Shown: one piece after another, positions 3,701-33,678 of the stretch
Position numbering within the stretch: position 1 is the stretch's first letter
Layout of the letters: each line of letters starts with the position of its first letter
Assembly (NCBI GenBank): GCA_947588785.1
Contig: CANPZN010000010.1
Coordinates: forward strand, 1 to 39,163
Source: Candidatus Gastranaerophilales bacterium
Lineage (GTDB): Bacteria; Cyanobacteriota; Vampirovibrionia; Gastranaerophilales; Gastranaerophilaceae
DNA: 39,163 nt
Direction: 5' to 3'
Notes under the pieces: model-generated
What the model was told of the DNA's origin: nothing
Database searches by the model: none
The model's input: the letters and a program-made list of their open reading frames with translations, nothing else
Program-made: the position numbers and the translations under genes

Positions 3701-4717
3701 ATGAAAAAACTTTTAATTATTTTAATAAACTTAATTTTATTTATCTTATTATTTATTTGTGTTGATTATTTTTCTGCAAAGTATCAGTATTATATTTCAA
3801 ATAAGAATATATCGGAAATGATGAAAAATCATAAAGATTTTGACACATTGGGAGAAAAATTTAAATCAGAAAAATTCAGATATAATTTACAATTAATCCA
3901 TTTTAAAAGATTTTGGGATGAACAAAGAAAACATTTTGATAATGAAAGAAGAGTTGTTAAACCTAAAAACATTAATAAAAACGGACAAAAAGCAATTATA
4001 GTATTTGGTTGTTCCTTTGCTGAAGGTGCTTTTCTTGAAGATAACGAAACATTTGAGTATAAATTATCCAATTTAACAAATTACACTGTGTACAACAGAG
4101 GTTTTTCAGGATTCGGACTCGGGCAAATGGTCTGGCAGACTAAACAAAAAGAGTTTTATGAGGATATAAAAGAACCTGTTGATTATGTAATTTATATTTA
4201 TATTCTTGACCATTTAAGAAGAATTTATGAGCATAAATATGGTCATATTAATGTTTATTTAGGATACGAAGAAAACAATGGAAAATTAATCGAAAAGAAT
4301 CCTTTAACACTTCAGTTAAACAGATTTTATTTAATTTCTAATTTCTTTCAAAACATTATTTTTTCTAAAATTTATCTTAATAAAAAAAATGATGATAAAA
4401 ATTTTGATTTAATAAAATTACACTTTGAAGAAGCAAGAAAAGAACTGCAAAAAAGATATCCAAATGTAAAATTTATAATTATTAAACATCCGTTTGGAGT
4501 TATGACTTCTAATGATATGGACTCTTATTCATTATTAAATTCTTATACAACAAAGAGATGGCAAGAACTTGAAGATGAAGGTTTTTTAGTATACGATTTA
4601 AAAGATGTTCTTGATGTTGATATTACATCAGATGAATATACATTCCCTGATGGACATCCGAATGAAAAAGCCTGGAATATCGTTACAAAAAAATTAGTTA
4701 AAGATTTAAATTTATGA
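3701..4717 (+). CDS. Membrane-anchored SGNH-hydrolase-like protein, copy 1
   Basis: This 338-residue protein has one N-terminal hydrophobic segment (about residues 4-22) and then a probable extracytoplasmic domain. An SGNH/GDSL-like nucleophile block GCSFAEG (Ser105) follows a hydrophobic strand, with a YNRGFSGFG block after it and a DGHP (Asp317, His319) block near the end, which fits the catalytic acid/His position. Such enzymes remove or transfer acyl groups on envelope glycans, but the substrate cannot be read from sequence. The next gene is a tandem paralog overlapping by 4 bp (ATGA), so the two are translationally coupled. The last 22 residues are identical in both, while the rest is clearly diverged. 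Confidence 0.7.
   Translation: MKKLLIILINLILFILLFICVDYFSAKYQYYISNKNISEMMKNHKDFDTLGEKFKSEKFRYNLQLIHFKRFWDEQRKHFDNERRVVKPKNINKNGQKAIIVFGCSFAEGAFLEDNETFEYKLSNLTNYTVYNRGFSGFGLGQMVWQTKQKEFYEDIKEPVDYVIYIYILDHLRRIYEHKYGHINVYLGYEENNGKLIEKNPLTLQLNRFYLISNFFQNIIFSKIYLNKKNDDKNFDLIKLHFEEARKELQKRYPNVKFIIIKHPFGVMTSNDMDSYSLLNSYTTKRWQELEDEGFLVYDLKDVLDVDITSDEYTFPDGHPNEKAWNIVTKKLVKDLNL
4648..4715 (+). repeat. 68-bp exact direct repeat, copy A (3' end of SGNH copy 1)
   Basis: These 68 bases, from TGATGGACATCC to AAATTTAT, are identical to 5649-5716. They cover the last 22 codons of each paralog and the first base of the stop codon. The neighbouring upstream sequence of the two genes differs at many sites. Confidence 0.95.
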
Positions 4718-5718
4718 AAAAACTATTATTAAATTTAATAATAATTCTTTTAATAATATTAGCAACAGATTTTGCTATTACATATAAAAATTATTTAACT
4801 TCCGTTAATGTGGAAAAACAAAATTTTATTAACAGAAATCTTGATATACATTCAGAAGAATTTAAGCAAAGTATTCCAAAATTTAAATATTCACTAAGGT
4901 TGATTCCTTTTAAAAATTATTATAAAAATTTTTCAAAAAACTTTTTAACATCTTACAAGAGAATTGCCGTAGGAAATGATAAAAACAAATCATCAATTAT
5001 TATTTTCGGTTGTTCTGTTGCTGACGGATTAGCTTTAGAACATAATTTTGCCGGACAATTATCAGATTTAACCGGGAGAACTGTTTATAACAGAGCTTTT
5101 GGAAGCATGGGGCCGGCTACTCTTGTTTGGCAAACTAAAAATAAAGAATTTTATCAGACACTACTTCCTGATTATAAAAGTAATCCGCCTGAATATGCGA
5201 TTTGGGTATATATTCCTCTTCAATTTGACAGAATTTACTTTGATAAATATGCTATTTATACTCCTATAATGGTAGGATATAATGTAAAAAATAACCATCT
5301 TGTTGAAAATAAAAATATACTATTGCAATTTTGCAGACTTAATATAGTAAAATCATTAGTTGATAAATTTATCATTCAAAAACATTTTAAAGAAACAAAT
5401 GATGTTTATAATGAAAATTTTGACTTACTTAAAATCCACTTTTTAGAAGCAAAATATGAACTTCAAAAAAGATTTCCCAATATAAAATTTATTATTATAA
5501 AATTTCCCATAGTCGGTATTGATTCTTTCACAAGATTTAAAGAATTTGAACAAATCAACAGATGGAAAGAATTAGAAAAAGATTTTATTGTTTATGATTT
5601 AACAAAAGAATTAAATGTCAATTTACTTGATGAACAGTATTTAATTTATGATGGACATCCGAATGAAAAAGCCTGGAATATCGTTACAAAAAAATTAGTT
5701 AAAGATTTAAATTTATAA
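4714..5718 (+). CDS. Membrane-anchored SGNH-hydrolase-like protein, copy 2
   Basis: This 334-residue paralog of the preceding gene has the same layout: N-terminal membrane segment (about residues 4-20), GCSVADG block with Ser101, YNRAFGSMG block, a shared VWQTK motif and a C-terminal DGHP block (Asp313, His315). Its ATG overlaps the stop of copy 1, so it is probably made from the same message. Outside the last 22 codons the two proteins look only moderately similar; those last codons are identical at DNA level. Function is inferred as an acyl-esterase or acyltransferase acting outside the cytoplasmic membrane. The SGNH assignment rests on motifs only. Confidence 0.7.
   Translation: MKKLLLNLIIILLIILATDFAITYKNYLTSVNVEKQNFINRNLDIHSEEFKQSIPKFKYSLRLIPFKNYYKNFSKNFLTSYKRIAVGNDKNKSSIIIFGCSVADGLALEHNFAGQLSDLTGRTVYNRAFGSMGPATLVWQTKNKEFYQTLLPDYKSNPPEYAIWVYIPLQFDRIYFDKYAIYTPIMVGYNVKNNHLVENKNILLQFCRLNIVKSLVDKFIIQKHFKETNDVYNENFDLLKIHFLEAKYELQKRFPNIKFIIIKFPIVGIDSFTRFKEFEQINRWKELEKDFIVYDLTKELNVNLLDEQYLIYDGHPNEKAWNIVTKKLVKDLNL
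5649..5716 (+). repeat. 68-bp exact direct repeat, copy B (3' end of SGNH copy 2)
   Basis: Second copy of the 68-bp identical block; see 4648-4715. The copies lie 1001 bp apart in the same orientation. Confidence 0.95.
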
Positions 5719-10142: not shown

Positions 10143-10180
10143 TTTTTCCTTTTAATTTTTAAAAGACTGTATATAAATTG

Positions 10181-10295
10181 TCCGAGTAAATTTTTACGAT
10201 AAGCCGAAGGTGTGAGTAAAAATTTGCGAGTGGCGTATTGAAAAGGTGAGCAACATTACGGTTGCGAGGAGCAAGCGTAATGTTGCGACACTAGA
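10181..10295 (+). repeat. Dispersed repeat with two hairpins
   Basis: Part of a 413-nt gene-free stretch (10143-10555). A first inverted repeat pairs AAATTTTTAC (10188-10197) with GTAAAAATTT (10216-10225). A second hairpin pairs GCAACATTACG (10250-10260) with CGTAATGTTGC (10276-10286), extended by TTGC/GCAA inside. It ends GACACTAGATTAAAT, the signature end found at several other places in this window. No open frame or RNA gene is apparent. Confidence 0.75.
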
Positions 10296-10348
10296 TTAAA
10301 TATATACAGTCTTTATTTTTTGCAAATAATCCGTAACTTTTGATAACC

Positions 10349-10440
10349 ATTTAATTTAGTGTCTCAACCTTGTACTTGCTCTCTTGGGGTTTGTCATTCG
10401 CTCGTTTTCGCTGCATTTCATTTTTTTTCCCCCCCTTCGA
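10349..10440 (-). repeat. Dispersed repeat, downstream side of aroF
   Basis: Begins TTTAGTGTCTCAACCTTGTACTT on the plus strand and continues with CTCTCTTGGGG and CATTCGCTCG. It matches 11611-11710 and 31137-31250 over most of its length in the same orientation. Orientation here is given relative to the copy at 10240-10295, which ends in the inverse sequence. Confidence 0.7.
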
Positions 10441-11610: not shown

Positions 11611-11712
11611 ATTTAATCTAGTGTTGCAACATTGTGCTTGCTCTCTTGAAATTTGCTCTCTTGGGGCTTGTTATTCGTTCGCTTTCGCTGCCGCTCATTT
11701 CAGCCCCTTCGC
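11611..11712 (-). repeat. Dispersed repeat, upstream side of aroF
   Basis: Starts ATTTAATCTAGTGTTGCAAC and carries CTCTCTTGGGGCTTGTTATT and TTCGCTTTCGCTGC, closely matching 10349-10440 in the same orientation about 1.26 kb away. Together they bracket aroF. The spacer 11570-11821 holds no gene. Confidence 0.7.
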
Positions 11713-11717
11713 TATGC

Positions 11718-11752
11718 AGTAGGGTAGATTTTAGTCTACCCTACTACTTTTT
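11718..11752 (+). terminator. Perfect 11-bp hairpin with T-run
   Basis: AGTAGGGTAGA (11718-11728) and TCTACCCTACT (11735-11745) pair perfectly around TTTTAG, followed by ACTTTTT. It has the form of a plus-strand rho-independent terminator, yet the genes on both sides are on the minus strand. It is enclosed by repeat copies and may be part of a mobile element. Confidence 0.6.
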
Positions 11753-11753
11753 G

Positions 11754-11800
11754 TATTTAATCTGGTGTCTCAACAGTAAAGTTGCTCTCACCCTTTAAAA
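11754..11800 (-). repeat. Short dispersed repeat copy
   Basis: Plus-strand sequence TATTTAATCTGGTGTCTCAA continuing through CAGTAAAGTTGCTCTCACC and CTTTAAAA. Its inverse aligns over about 47 nt, with few differences, with the segment inside ispE at 32932-32979. Confidence 0.75.
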
Positions 11801-11821
11801 ATGCCACTCCAAAATTAGTAA

Positions 11822-30300: not shown

Positions 30301-30332
30301 TTCGGTGTCTCAACCGTAAAGTTGCTTTCATC
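30301..30332 (-). repeat. Short dispersed repeat copy
   Basis: TTCGGTGTCTCAACCGTAAA followed by GTTGCTTTCATC; close to 11761-11792 and, inverted, to the ispE-internal copy. It lies in the 221-nt gap after accB, which contains no gene. Confidence 0.7.
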
Positions 30333-30424: not shown

Positions 30425-30462
30425 AATTTAATTCAGTGTCGCAACATTAAAGTTGATTACTC
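30425..30462 (-). repeat. Short dispersed repeat copy
   Basis: ATTTAATTCAGTGTCGCAAC followed by ATTAAAGTTGATTACTC; same family as 11754-11800, same orientation. Confidence 0.65.
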
Positions 30463-31132: not shown

Positions 31133-31250
31133 ATTCAATCTAGTGTCGCAACCTTGTGATTGCTGGCTTGTCATTCGCTCGCTTTCGCTTGACTCCACCC
31201 TACGGAAATTTCGCTCTCTTGATCTTTCCTTATCGCAAAATTTTCTCGGA
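31133..31250 (-). repeat. Dispersed repeat upstream of the 30489 gene
   Basis: Part of the 344-nt gap 31104-31447. It starts AAATTCAATCTAGTGTCGCA, carries CATTCGCTCGCTTTCGCTTG and CTACGGAAATTTCGCTCTCT, and ends in AAAATTTTCTCGGACAT, which recurs at 3656-3672. From 31251 to 31447 I see AT-rich sequence without gene or recognisable structure. Confidence 0.7.
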
Positions 31251-31447
31251 CATCTTAATAAAACCCTGTTACAGAGTTTTTCCTCTATTTATCAGCAAAA
31301 TTTATCAGGTGTTGAAATTCCTTAGCTGCTATCTTTTTAAACATGTCATCTAAAAATTACTACCTTAATACAATTTTTAACATGCCTCATACATTATATA
31401 AATTCAAACAAATTTTTTTTTGCTAATTATTTTTCAATAAATTTTTG

Positions 31448-31957: not shown

Positions 31958-32794
31958 ATGAATTATTTTGAACGTGCAAAAAAATTTAGAGCAAAAAAAA
32001 GACTCGGACAAAATTTTTTAATCGACACTAATACTATTGAAACAATTATTAATATATCCGATATAAATCCAAATGATATTGTTGTTGAAATAGGTTCAGG
32101 TCTTGGTTTTGTTACGGAACAACTTGTTAAAATCGCAAAAAAAGTTTATGCTATTGAGCTTGATCAAGACATGGTAAATGAATTATCTAAGATTAATGCT
32201 GATAATCTGGAAATTGTTCATCAGGATATCTTAAAAACCGATTTATCTTCTTTCGGACAAAATATAAAAATTGTTGCAAATATCCCTTATTATATAACTT
32301 CTCCCATTCTCGCACATTTACTCGGGGAAATTGATGATCTTAATAATAAAAATCGTTCCAGTATATCTCAAATCGTCTTAATGGTTCAATATGAAGTGGC
32401 AAAAAGACTAATTGCAAATGAAAAATCTCCCTCTAAAGAATTTGGGCTTTTATCAATTTTAGCCCAATTTTGGGCTAATGTTGAATTTATTAAAAAAATT
32501 CCCGCTAAATCTTTTTTCCCCGCTCCTAAAGTAGATTCAGCAATAGTTAAATTAATTATTAACAAAACTCCTTTACTAGAACTTTCTAATTATACTTTTT
32601 TTAAAAAAGTTACAAAAAGTTGTTTCGCAACAAGAAGAAAAAACATAAAAAATTCACTTATTAATATGGGTTTTGACAAAAATGCTGTTCAAAAAACTTT
32701 GGCTGATCTTGATATTAATGAAAATATCAGAGGTGAAACTCTTTCTATTCACAAAATGGGACAAGTCGCAGAAATACTTAAGGCAAATTTATGA
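31958..32794 (+). CDS. ksgA: 16S rRNA dimethyladenosine transferase
   Basis: KsgA/RsmA dimethylates two adjacent adenines near the 3' end of 16S rRNA, a late step in 30S assembly. The 278-residue protein has the usual size and motifs: KKRLGQNFL (about 8-17), the SAM-binding loop VEIGSGLGFVTEQL, AIELDQDM, and the catalytic NIPYYITSPIL. A TATTAT at 31945-31950 ends 7 nt before the ATG and no ribosome binding site is seen, so it is probably leaderless. It overlaps ispE by 4 bp (ATGA). Confidence 0.97.
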   Translation: MNYFERAKKFRAKKRLGQNFLIDTNTIETIINISDINPNDIVVEIGSGLGFVTEQLVKIAKKVYAIELDQDMVNELSKINADNLEIVHQDILKTDLSSFGQNIKIVANIPYYITSPILAHLLGEIDDLNNKNRSSISQIVLMVQYEVAKRLIANEKSPSKEFGLLSILAQFWANVEFIKKIPAKSFFPAPKVDSAIVKLIINKTPLLELSNYTFFKKVTKSCFATRRKNIKNSLINMGFDKNAVQKTLADLDINENIRGETLSIHKMGQVAEILKANL

Positions 32795-33678
32795 AAACTT
32801 TAACTGTTAAAACACCGGCTAAAATTAATCTTACTCTCGAAGTATTAAATAAACGAAAAGATGGATTCCATAATATACAATCTATTATGCAAACAATTAA
32901 TTTATATGATTTTTTAACTTTTGAAGTGGAGTTTTTTAAAGGTGAACAACTTTACGGTTGCAACACTAGATTAAATAATATTTCTATTGAACTCAACGGA
33001 AATAATAAAGATATTCCTTACAATGAATCAAATCTTGTTTATAAAGCCGCAAGTTTGTTTTTCCAAAAATCTAAAATATCATCCGCAAAATTAAAAATTT
33101 ACATTGAGAAAAATATACCTGTTTCGGCAGGTCTTGCAGGCGGAAGTTCAAATGCTGCCGGAACTTTTTTTGCTTTAAACAAATTATATAATAATATTCT
33201 TACATCCTCTGAAATTGAAGAATTATGTGCTTCTTTAGGTTCCGATCTCAATTTCTGTTTATATGGCGGCTGTCAATTATGTACTTCGAGAGGTGAAATC
33301 CTTGAAAAATTGCCTTATTTTAAACAAAATGTTTCTCTTATAAAACCTAAAAACATCGGAATAAGTGCAAAAGATGCATATTCTAAATTTTCTTTATTAA
33401 AAGATAAATCAATACCTAATAATACACAAAAATTAAAAAACCTTTTATTAAACGGAAAATTTGACAAAACATTAATTTATAACAGTCTTGAAAATGCACT
33501 CTTTCCTTACTATGAGAGCTTAAGAGAAATAAAAGAAAATGTAAAAAATTCACTAATGTCGGGTTCTGGTTCTGCTTTTTTTGTACTTGAATCTGATGTT
33601 AATACAACTTTAGATCGGAGTAATTTTGAAATCATTGAAAATCTTGAAACCATTCAAAATGGAATTGTTGAAGTCTGA
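32791..33678 (+). CDS. ispE: 4-diphosphocytidyl-2-C-methyl-D-erythritol kinase, with an in-frame repeat insertion
   Basis: IspE phosphorylates CDP-methylerythritol in the non-mevalonate isoprenoid pathway. The 295-residue GHMP kinase has TPAKINLTLEV at the N-terminus, the ATP loop PVSAGLAGGSSNAAG (about 110-124), the catalytic Asp in LGSDLNFCL and the C-terminal MSGSGSAFFVL. Residues about 48-63 (FFKGEQLYGCNTRLNN) have no place in the usual alignment between the DFLTFEV strand and NLVYKAA; E. coli and Bacillus proteins have about 15 fewer residues there. The DNA of this stretch matches a dispersed intergenic repeat. All catalytic motifs are intact, so the enzyme is probably still active. It is coupled to ksgA, and murQ follows after 27 nt. 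Confidence 0.95.
   Translation: MKTLTVKTPAKINLTLEVLNKRKDGFHNIQSIMQTINLYDFLTFEVEFFKGEQLYGCNTRLNNISIELNGNNKDIPYNESNLVYKAASLFFQKSKISSAKLKIYIEKNIPVSAGLAGGSSNAAGTFFALNKLYNNILTSSEIEELCASLGSDLNFCLYGGCQLCTSRGEILEKLPYFKQNVSLIKPKNIGISAKDAYSKFSLLKDKSIPNNTQKLKNLLLNGKFDKTLIYNSLENALFPYYESLREIKENVKNSLMSGSGSAFFVLESDVNTTLDRSNFEIIENLETIQNGIVEV
32932..32979 (+). repeat. Dispersed repeat copy inside the ispE coding region
   Basis: The core GGTGAACAACTTTACGGTTG followed by CAACACTAGATTAAATA aligns with the inverse of 11754-11800, including the flanking TTTTAAAG; 24 of the last 28 bases agree, with a 3-nt difference in the first part. Matching cores are at 30301-30332 (inverted) and 10240-10295. The reading frame is kept. 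Confidence 0.8.

Follow-up and report, generated by a model that had tools for sequence, protein, structure and literature searches.

Selfish palindromic repeats that lie in frame inside conserved genes are best known from Rickettsia, and protein-coding palindromic repeats have reportedly been found in Wolbachia as well. Rickettsia and the other hosts of open-frame repeats introduced below are proteobacteria. The sections of two published accounts that deal with the Rickettsia repeats (RPE) describe hairpin-forming sequences of 105–146 bp or ~150 bp, which occur both between genes and in frame within protein genes; 19 reading frames are given in one review, one tested enzyme was still active, and target duplication is listed as unknown (PMC2229807, PMC10969869). 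One account gives RPE a terminal inverted repeat of 12 bp (PMC2229807). Besides the repeats of Rickettsia, the same sections name the open-frame repeats ERIC and those of Yersinia, Neisseria, and Coxiella (PMC2229807, PMC10969869). ERIC/RU-1, YPAL/RU-2, and the 107-bp form of Correia/NEMIS are treated there as MITE-like repeats, which have an open frame fused to host genes and many intergenic copies, and terminal inverted repeats and target duplication are listed for ERIC/RU-1 and Correia/NEMIS (PMC2229807).

Here, we describe a repeat of this kind from a different phylum, found in gut MAGs. The window, that is, the whole stretch of DNA that was analyzed (39,163 nt), is contig C10 of a 2.1-Mb Gastranaerophilales draft genome in 153 contigs. 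The repeat is very probably a small non-autonomous mobile element of one Gastranaerophilales genus, which inserts into AT-rich sequence and whose coding-competent versions are open throughout one frame. A literature search on Gastranaerophilales, Vampirovibrionia, and Melainabacteria, with subscription journals mostly outside its scope, gave no report of such an element among the papers listed.

A preliminary description of this DNA had proposed an RPE-like system in this lineage, which is apt for the behaviour of the element but not for its ends. Like RPE, the element forms short, dispersed, hairpin-forming repeats that lie in frame inside conserved protein genes. It differs from them, RPE being compared by description, in its phylum, in its mosaic copies of 63–293 nt, and in its ends (TGTCCGAG and GATTAAAT), whose inverted similarity does not exceed that of shuffled ends. 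With ERIC/RU-1, YPAL/RU-2, and Correia/NEMIS it shares an open frame in host genes and many intergenic copies; it departs from ERIC/RU-1 and Correia/NEMIS in that 54 end pairings gave no inverted ends and that adjacent direct repeats stay at the shuffled level. The terminal inverted repeats of MITEs are not found in this element. The element is therefore treated as a variant and not classed as an RPE, a MITE, or an IS200/IS605 derivative. The many species available for comparison, the unlike ends, and the covarying hairpin should permit direct tests of site choice, of the mover, and of the tolerance of enzymes toward sudden loops.

An insertion in a loop of IspE

The following features of the window bear on the ispE gene:

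32791..33678, + strand: ispE, encoding 4-diphosphocytidyl-2-C-methyl-D-erythritol kinase (295 aa), the host of the insertion (TIGR00154, 180 bits; cut-off 138.7)
32916..32976, + strand: ispE stretch resembling the 3′ part of the element (pairwise alignment; nhmmer, 60.2 bits from 32917)
32941..32976, + strand: net insertion of 36 nt, or 12 codons (GEQLYGCNTRLN), in a beta-hairpin loop of IspE, absent from the ortholog alignment (0/29 positive)
11755..11816, − strand: intergenic copy of the 3′ part, the one cited in the preliminary description (50.4 bits, left-out profile)

The preliminary description had matched ~47 nt of ispE, placed at 32932–32979, with the inverse of the repeat at 11754–11800, counting 24 of the last 28 positions as equal. 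Both the match and this count are borne out: the ispE stretch and the reverse complement of 11755–11816 give a 61-column alignment whose local score is 35, whereas randomly drawn pairs of window segments average 8.2 and never score above 15. The extent requires correction, the matching span being 32916–32976. An nhmmer profile of 27 element copies, from which both window copies (ispE and 11755) were excluded, gives 60.2 bits (E 5.6e-18) for the ispE stretch, whereas 50 Markov-simulated windows (1.96 Mb in total) yield no more than 11.5, which agrees with the earlier claim of a dispersed repeat in frame within ispE. The reading frame continues through the insert, and the whole protein fits the family model. 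The fragmentation of the draft into 153 contigs might invite the suspicion that the ispE similarity reflects chance or an assembly artefact; this is hardly credible in view of 60 bits against 11.5 in simulated sequence, of the unbroken ispE frame and the fit to the family model, and of the recurrence of like insertions in other genes and genomes.

Comparison with related proteins, in which presence and absence are contrasted between species that are ~60–76% identical in IspE, showed that the segment is not general, as had been expected from the preliminary description. The 12 residues are present in 0 of 29 aligned orthologs of the genus, and in eight further IspE proteins of the genus the match spans are 12–13 residues shorter than the query, so that 37 of the 38 other genus genomes with an IspE match have none of them (29 by alignment, eight by match length). 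An extra segment had been claimed at about 15 residues; it is real and measures 12 residues (36 nt). It is best placed at 32941–32976, with a left edge that we infer from sequence, and the first 12 nt of the longer similarity (32916–32976, up to TTTTGAAGT) are probably native sequence resembling the element. Among named genomes, the nearest IspE genes are those of Candidatus Gastranaerophilales MAGs.

The exception among the 38 genomes, G018, has an insertion of its own in the same IspE loop, in reverse orientation. Its IspE contains ~70 extra residues there, encoded in frame by an insert region of 225 nt, of which 24 nt, reverse to the gene, are identical to three other G018 element copies (BLAST, E 2e-8). 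The end of the insert resembles, by eye, the reverse complement of the element's 3′ end, and the link to the element thus consists of these 24 nt by BLAST and the 3′ end by eye, out of 225 nt. As this insert is separate and of opposite orientation in the same loop, the loop was probably hit twice, independently, in two species.

The structural context indicates how the enzyme may accommodate the added residues. An AlphaFold model of IspE has a mean pLDDT of 94.3 and a pTM of 0.91; residues 53–59, between strands 27–48 and 63–70, are its sole segment with pLDDT below 50, and an alignment to the solved IspE 3pyd has a gap at the place of insertion. Columns invariant across 15 IspE sequences include K11, H27, G114–S119, and D152, which belong to the catalytic and substrate sites, and the catalytic motifs are intact, as noted earlier. 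IspE has apparently been left intact despite the added floppy loop. From sequence alone, we suggest that a full element would have inserted in the hairpin loop after LTFEV and would then have lost its 5′ half through a deletion with the native TTTTGAAGT on one side and the element's TTTTGGAGT on the other. Such a deletion would leave the present net gain of 36 nt.

Copies, ends, and folding of the element

Further copies in the window are as follows:

10179..10301, + strand: complete 123-nt copy of the young subfamily, intergenic (ends paired; matches a 16-copy subfamily)
31133..31252, − strand: complete 120-nt copy, intergenic, with an open coding frame (end pairing)
30426..30462, − strand: partial copy, 3′ part (23.1 bits)
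30303..30332, − strand: partial copy (21.2 bits)
10349..10381, − strand: 3′ end of another variant (12.1 bits, near the simulated maximum of 11.5)
11611..11630, − strand: 3′ end of another variant (13.1 bits, near the simulated maximum of 11.5)

The element is dispersed and in clear excess throughout the 2.1-Mb genome, as the preliminary description would predict: BLAST with the ispE stretch gave at least 49 matches at E ≤ 10 (the best at 2e-15, besides the stretch itself), and the profile at least 180 matches at E ≤ 1 and at least 120 at E ≤ 0.001. Complete copies run from approximately TGTCCGAG to GATTAAAT, and in the young subfamily the unique flanks end there. This subfamily comprises 16 copies of 123 nt with an average identity of 98.7% (in 435,679 bases), and their near-identity suggests recent activity. 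A scan for paired ends over these 435,679 bases, picked mostly for containing matches, so that densities drawn from them are biased, allowed mismatches and was limited to lengths of 45–300. It yielded 54 pairings of a 5′ with a 3′ end, of 63–293 nt and with mosaic interiors; these include a few degenerate copies and represent 52 distinct starts, one on C1 and one on C90 being counted twice. Retroposition, a reading suggested by 5′ truncation, was rejected on account of copies that have both ends and different interiors.

The two ends of the element are fixed and unlike each other. Comparison of the first 20 nt with the reverse complement of the last 20 gave a mean of 4.26 over the 54 pairings and of 4.48 after shuffling. 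MITE-like inverted ends, considered because two 3′ ends face each other on C22, were discarded since the ends of complete copies are unlike. Direct repeats beside the ends in this genome average 0.72, against 0.78 in shuffled pairings (n = 54). The left flank is AT-rich, with A at position −4 in 85 of 93 copies (species pooled), and the right end is mostly constant, reading AAAT in 65 of 93. The last base of the right end equals the left flank in 62 of 93 copies overall (P 0.004 against shuffling), in 31 of 39 outside this genome (P 0.0006), and in 31 of 54 within it (P 0.47). In the shikimate kinase of G014, an AGAC/AGAC case would fit a 4-nt target duplication.

Several other sequences were observed close to element copies. 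The copy at 10179–10301 is flanked by a 10-nt inverted repeat, gactgtatat/atatacagtc (window 10169–10312, by eye), as if a terminator hairpin had received the insertion in its loop. At 11718–11745, next to one copy, there is a strong palindrome that resembles a terminator (AGTAGGGTAGATTTTAGTCTACCCTACT), and GTAGGGTA sequences follow some other copies elsewhere in the genome. At locus L113, a tRNA-like sequence (upstream of 1467) shares nine letters, by eye, with the 5′ end of the element that immediately follows it (TGTCCGAGT), which is probably a coincidence.

The 3′ part of the element forms a covarying hairpin. In most copies from other species, the 3′ module has a constant length of 64 nt and varies in both arms. 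The covariation alignment of 27 rows was drawn from 35 segments and the window copy, leaving out L052, L055, L089, L095, and L155, which are not the element, as well as two short forms of 43 nt and two 70-nt forms from G018; the R1 element model was built without base pairs. Across the 27 sequences, two-sided changes occur in 12 of the 20 pairs. Covariation scores 0.384, against 0.034–0.121 with partners slid by 1–3 columns. Paired cells, cells with a change in both partners, and this score all lie above the 500 column shuffles; the number of pairs with two-sided change (87/500) and that of further pair types (386/500) do not. Folding of 53 complete copies gave an average z-score of −2.9 (range −9.7 to 1.4), with several short or mosaic copies near zero, and the window copy at 10179–10301 forms two hairpins, one toward each end (z −8.3). 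RNAalifold on 29 mostly short copies returned only five pairs, one with two-sided change; the structure becomes clear only from 64-nt modules of several species. The term “palindromic” used in the preliminary description is accordingly apt for the 3′ hairpin of the complete element and less so for the short ispE copy, which retains a small hairpin only.

Reading frame and host genes

Coding-competent versions have one frame open from the first to the last base (TGT CCG AGA AAA TTT ... ACT AGA TTA AAT). Among 12 distinct 117-nt copies from other genomes, eight have frame 1 open and all have stops in frames 2 and 3; in part of the copies, one or another reverse frame is open as well. With frame 1 often open and stops in frames 2 and 3, copies inside genes mostly use one frame. 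Accordingly, the 150 hits at E ≤ 0.01 include 18 rows located in ORFs, of which 14, representing 13 copies, are in one frame; of the other four rows, two are antisense and two have the element ahead of a start region or overlapping it. These ORF-based counts are partly circular, because a frame-breaking insertion would leave no ORF. When flanks were joined across the element, six of the 54 pairings fell within frames of at least 150 aa, and all six frames are open with the element filled in, five in sense and one in antisense (C4:3637–3753). Joined-flank frames of 103 and 116 aa are both interrupted by the element. The antisense copy and the reverse insert in the ispE gene of G018 show that neither the frame nor the orientation is strictly kept.

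Ten of the 54 pairings are a multiple of three in length with frame 1 open, namely the five sense copies of the joined-flank test, a 180-nt copy in a TPR protein, and four copies outside long ORFs. These numbers bear on whether the inserts are removed before the protein acts, by intron-like splicing or ribosome bypassing. Elements that are bypassed or spliced can occupy genes of diverse function, as this one does. Removal is nevertheless very improbable, since a removed element would need no open frame, whereas these ten pairings are open multiples of three, six of them sense copies in long ORFs (a partly circular count, long ORFs being the criterion), and Rfam searches of five element-bearing loci gave tRNA only. 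Rfam searches of the window at the gathering score gave no known RNA family.

Protein genes carry insertions of the element in at least five species of the genus, namely this one, G014, G018, G022, and G054. In this genome, a complete 63-nt element lies between the radical-SAM part and the DUF2344 part of one protein, and the linker minus these 63 nt has the exact length of that in the nearest ortholog (G005), other orthologs being within ~2 residues. Another complete 63-nt element separates the receiver domain of a response regulator from its LuxR-type domain, and in an Fe-S protein a partial element separates the Fer4 part from the CCG part. The element is present in that Fe-S linker, which varies in length, in 0 of 11 aligned homologs (11 of the 12 searched genus genomes have one). 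The 180-nt copy occupies the N-terminal part of the TPR protein, and other in-gene copies lie beside a match to LPG_synthase_TM and in several proteins that match no Pfam family. In the shikimate kinase of G014, PDB 2pt5 aligns at 1–67 and 69–161 on either side of a 39-codon element. G022 has the element in LarE and in an MBL-fold protein, and G054 in the N-terminal part of a DEAD-helicase protein. Copies before RimP (G022) and before a G049 protein may lie upstream of the true start. Species-specific inserts in IspE, shikimate kinase, and LarE of this genus should thus be regarded as repeat-derived and not as functional domains.

Variable sites in the 12 distinct 117-nt copies number 16, 7, and 12 at the three codon positions; in this small sample, third positions show no excess, and protein-level selection on the element is thus not seen. 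That the peptide is retained for a useful function, as a domesticated loop, could be suspected from the same IspE loop being hit in two species and in opposite orientations. We consider this improbable, given the lack of a codon-position signature in this small sample, the low predicted order of the segment, and the missing insert in 37 of the 38 other genus genomes with an IspE match. As codon positions give no sign of selection, a tolerated selfish repeat is the simplest reading. An insertion within a gene would survive mainly if it is in an open frame and falls in a loop or linker, and the host protein would stay functional with an added segment, probably disordered, which measures 12–82 residues in the copies observed.

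Longer modules of the element encode a stretch resembling ERTRECEDELNDKRSxVKHSSDTKRIIEPIGEINEPxSxAKRSV, found in the N-terminal parts of several unrelated proteins (L008, L015, L198, and L228). Proteins with N-terminal copies (L252, L016, L015, L228, and L218) start, by eye, with approximately M-K-I or M-N-I followed by an N/Y-rich segment, which is possibly an N-terminal motif common to this lineage. At L238 (921–2099), a degenerate copy seemingly provides the start codon of a 393-aa open frame.

Distribution and mode of movement

Within the genus, at least 28 of 40 genomes have a profile match at E ≤ 0.001, the remaining 12 being without one among the matches scored. The genomes G040, G044, G008, and G022 have at least 47, 33, 29, and 20 such matches, respectively. 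BLAST with a 63-nt consensus (E ≤ 0.001) found the element in 15 of 23 genomes of the genus and, among 15 genomes that represent other genera of the order, in none. Two exact patterns had no match in IMG/VR, and the 123-nt copy, used as one query each against a phage and a plasmid collection, had none there; a phage or plasmid origin was dismissed on these results.

Overall, we favor the reading that the element is selfish, non-autonomous, and palindromic, with in-gene copies filtered by frame and by loop or linker position. An enzyme or process acting in trans would read the hairpin ends and move it. A reverse transcriptase was considered as the mover: RVT_1 occurs in 15 of the 40 genus genomes, with one match in this genome, and was rejected because its share is 7 of 21 among genomes that have at least six element copies and 8 of 19 among the others. 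DDE_Tnp_1 has no match in this genome and occurs in 4 of 40, and a TnpB-type zinc ribbon was found in 0 of 40.

IS200/IS605-type transposons typically have hairpins at their ends, no target duplication, a flank bias on one side, and a constant right end, and their targets are strict. The element resembles the palindromes derived from them, and REPs, in its hairpins toward the ends (two in the 123-nt window copy) and in that target duplication was not found in this genome by the shuffled-pairing test; the base bias confined to the left flank and the AAAT right end also fit. It could accordingly derive from such a transposon, moving as a hairpin-guided single strand in the manner of PATE or REP sequences, with the Y1 transposase lost or unassembled. 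We regard this origin as doubtful. Unlike what it would lead one to expect, Y1_Tnp has no match in this genome, and its presence in 11 of the 40 genus genomes (4 of the 21 that have at least six copies, 7 of the 19 others) shows no positive association with copy number; the left target tetranucleotide is loose, and the matching of the last base with the left flank outside this genome (31/39) and overall (62/93) is not predicted by this model.

A more far-reaching version of the selfish-element reading, which we put forward tentatively and consider rather unlikely, is that a lineage-specific palindromic element is mobilized in the form of a folded single strand, the agent being an enzyme or a replication process that belongs to none of the tested transposase families, and that it continually supplies in-frame loops to conserved enzymes. 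If so, the opposite-handed inserts in one IspE loop of two species would amount to a natural, ongoing loop-insertion experiment.

Elsewhere in the window, an exact 68-nt direct repeat (4648–4715 and 5649–5716) occupies the ends of neighbouring ORFs of 338 and 334 aa, which suggests recent gene conversion or duplication.
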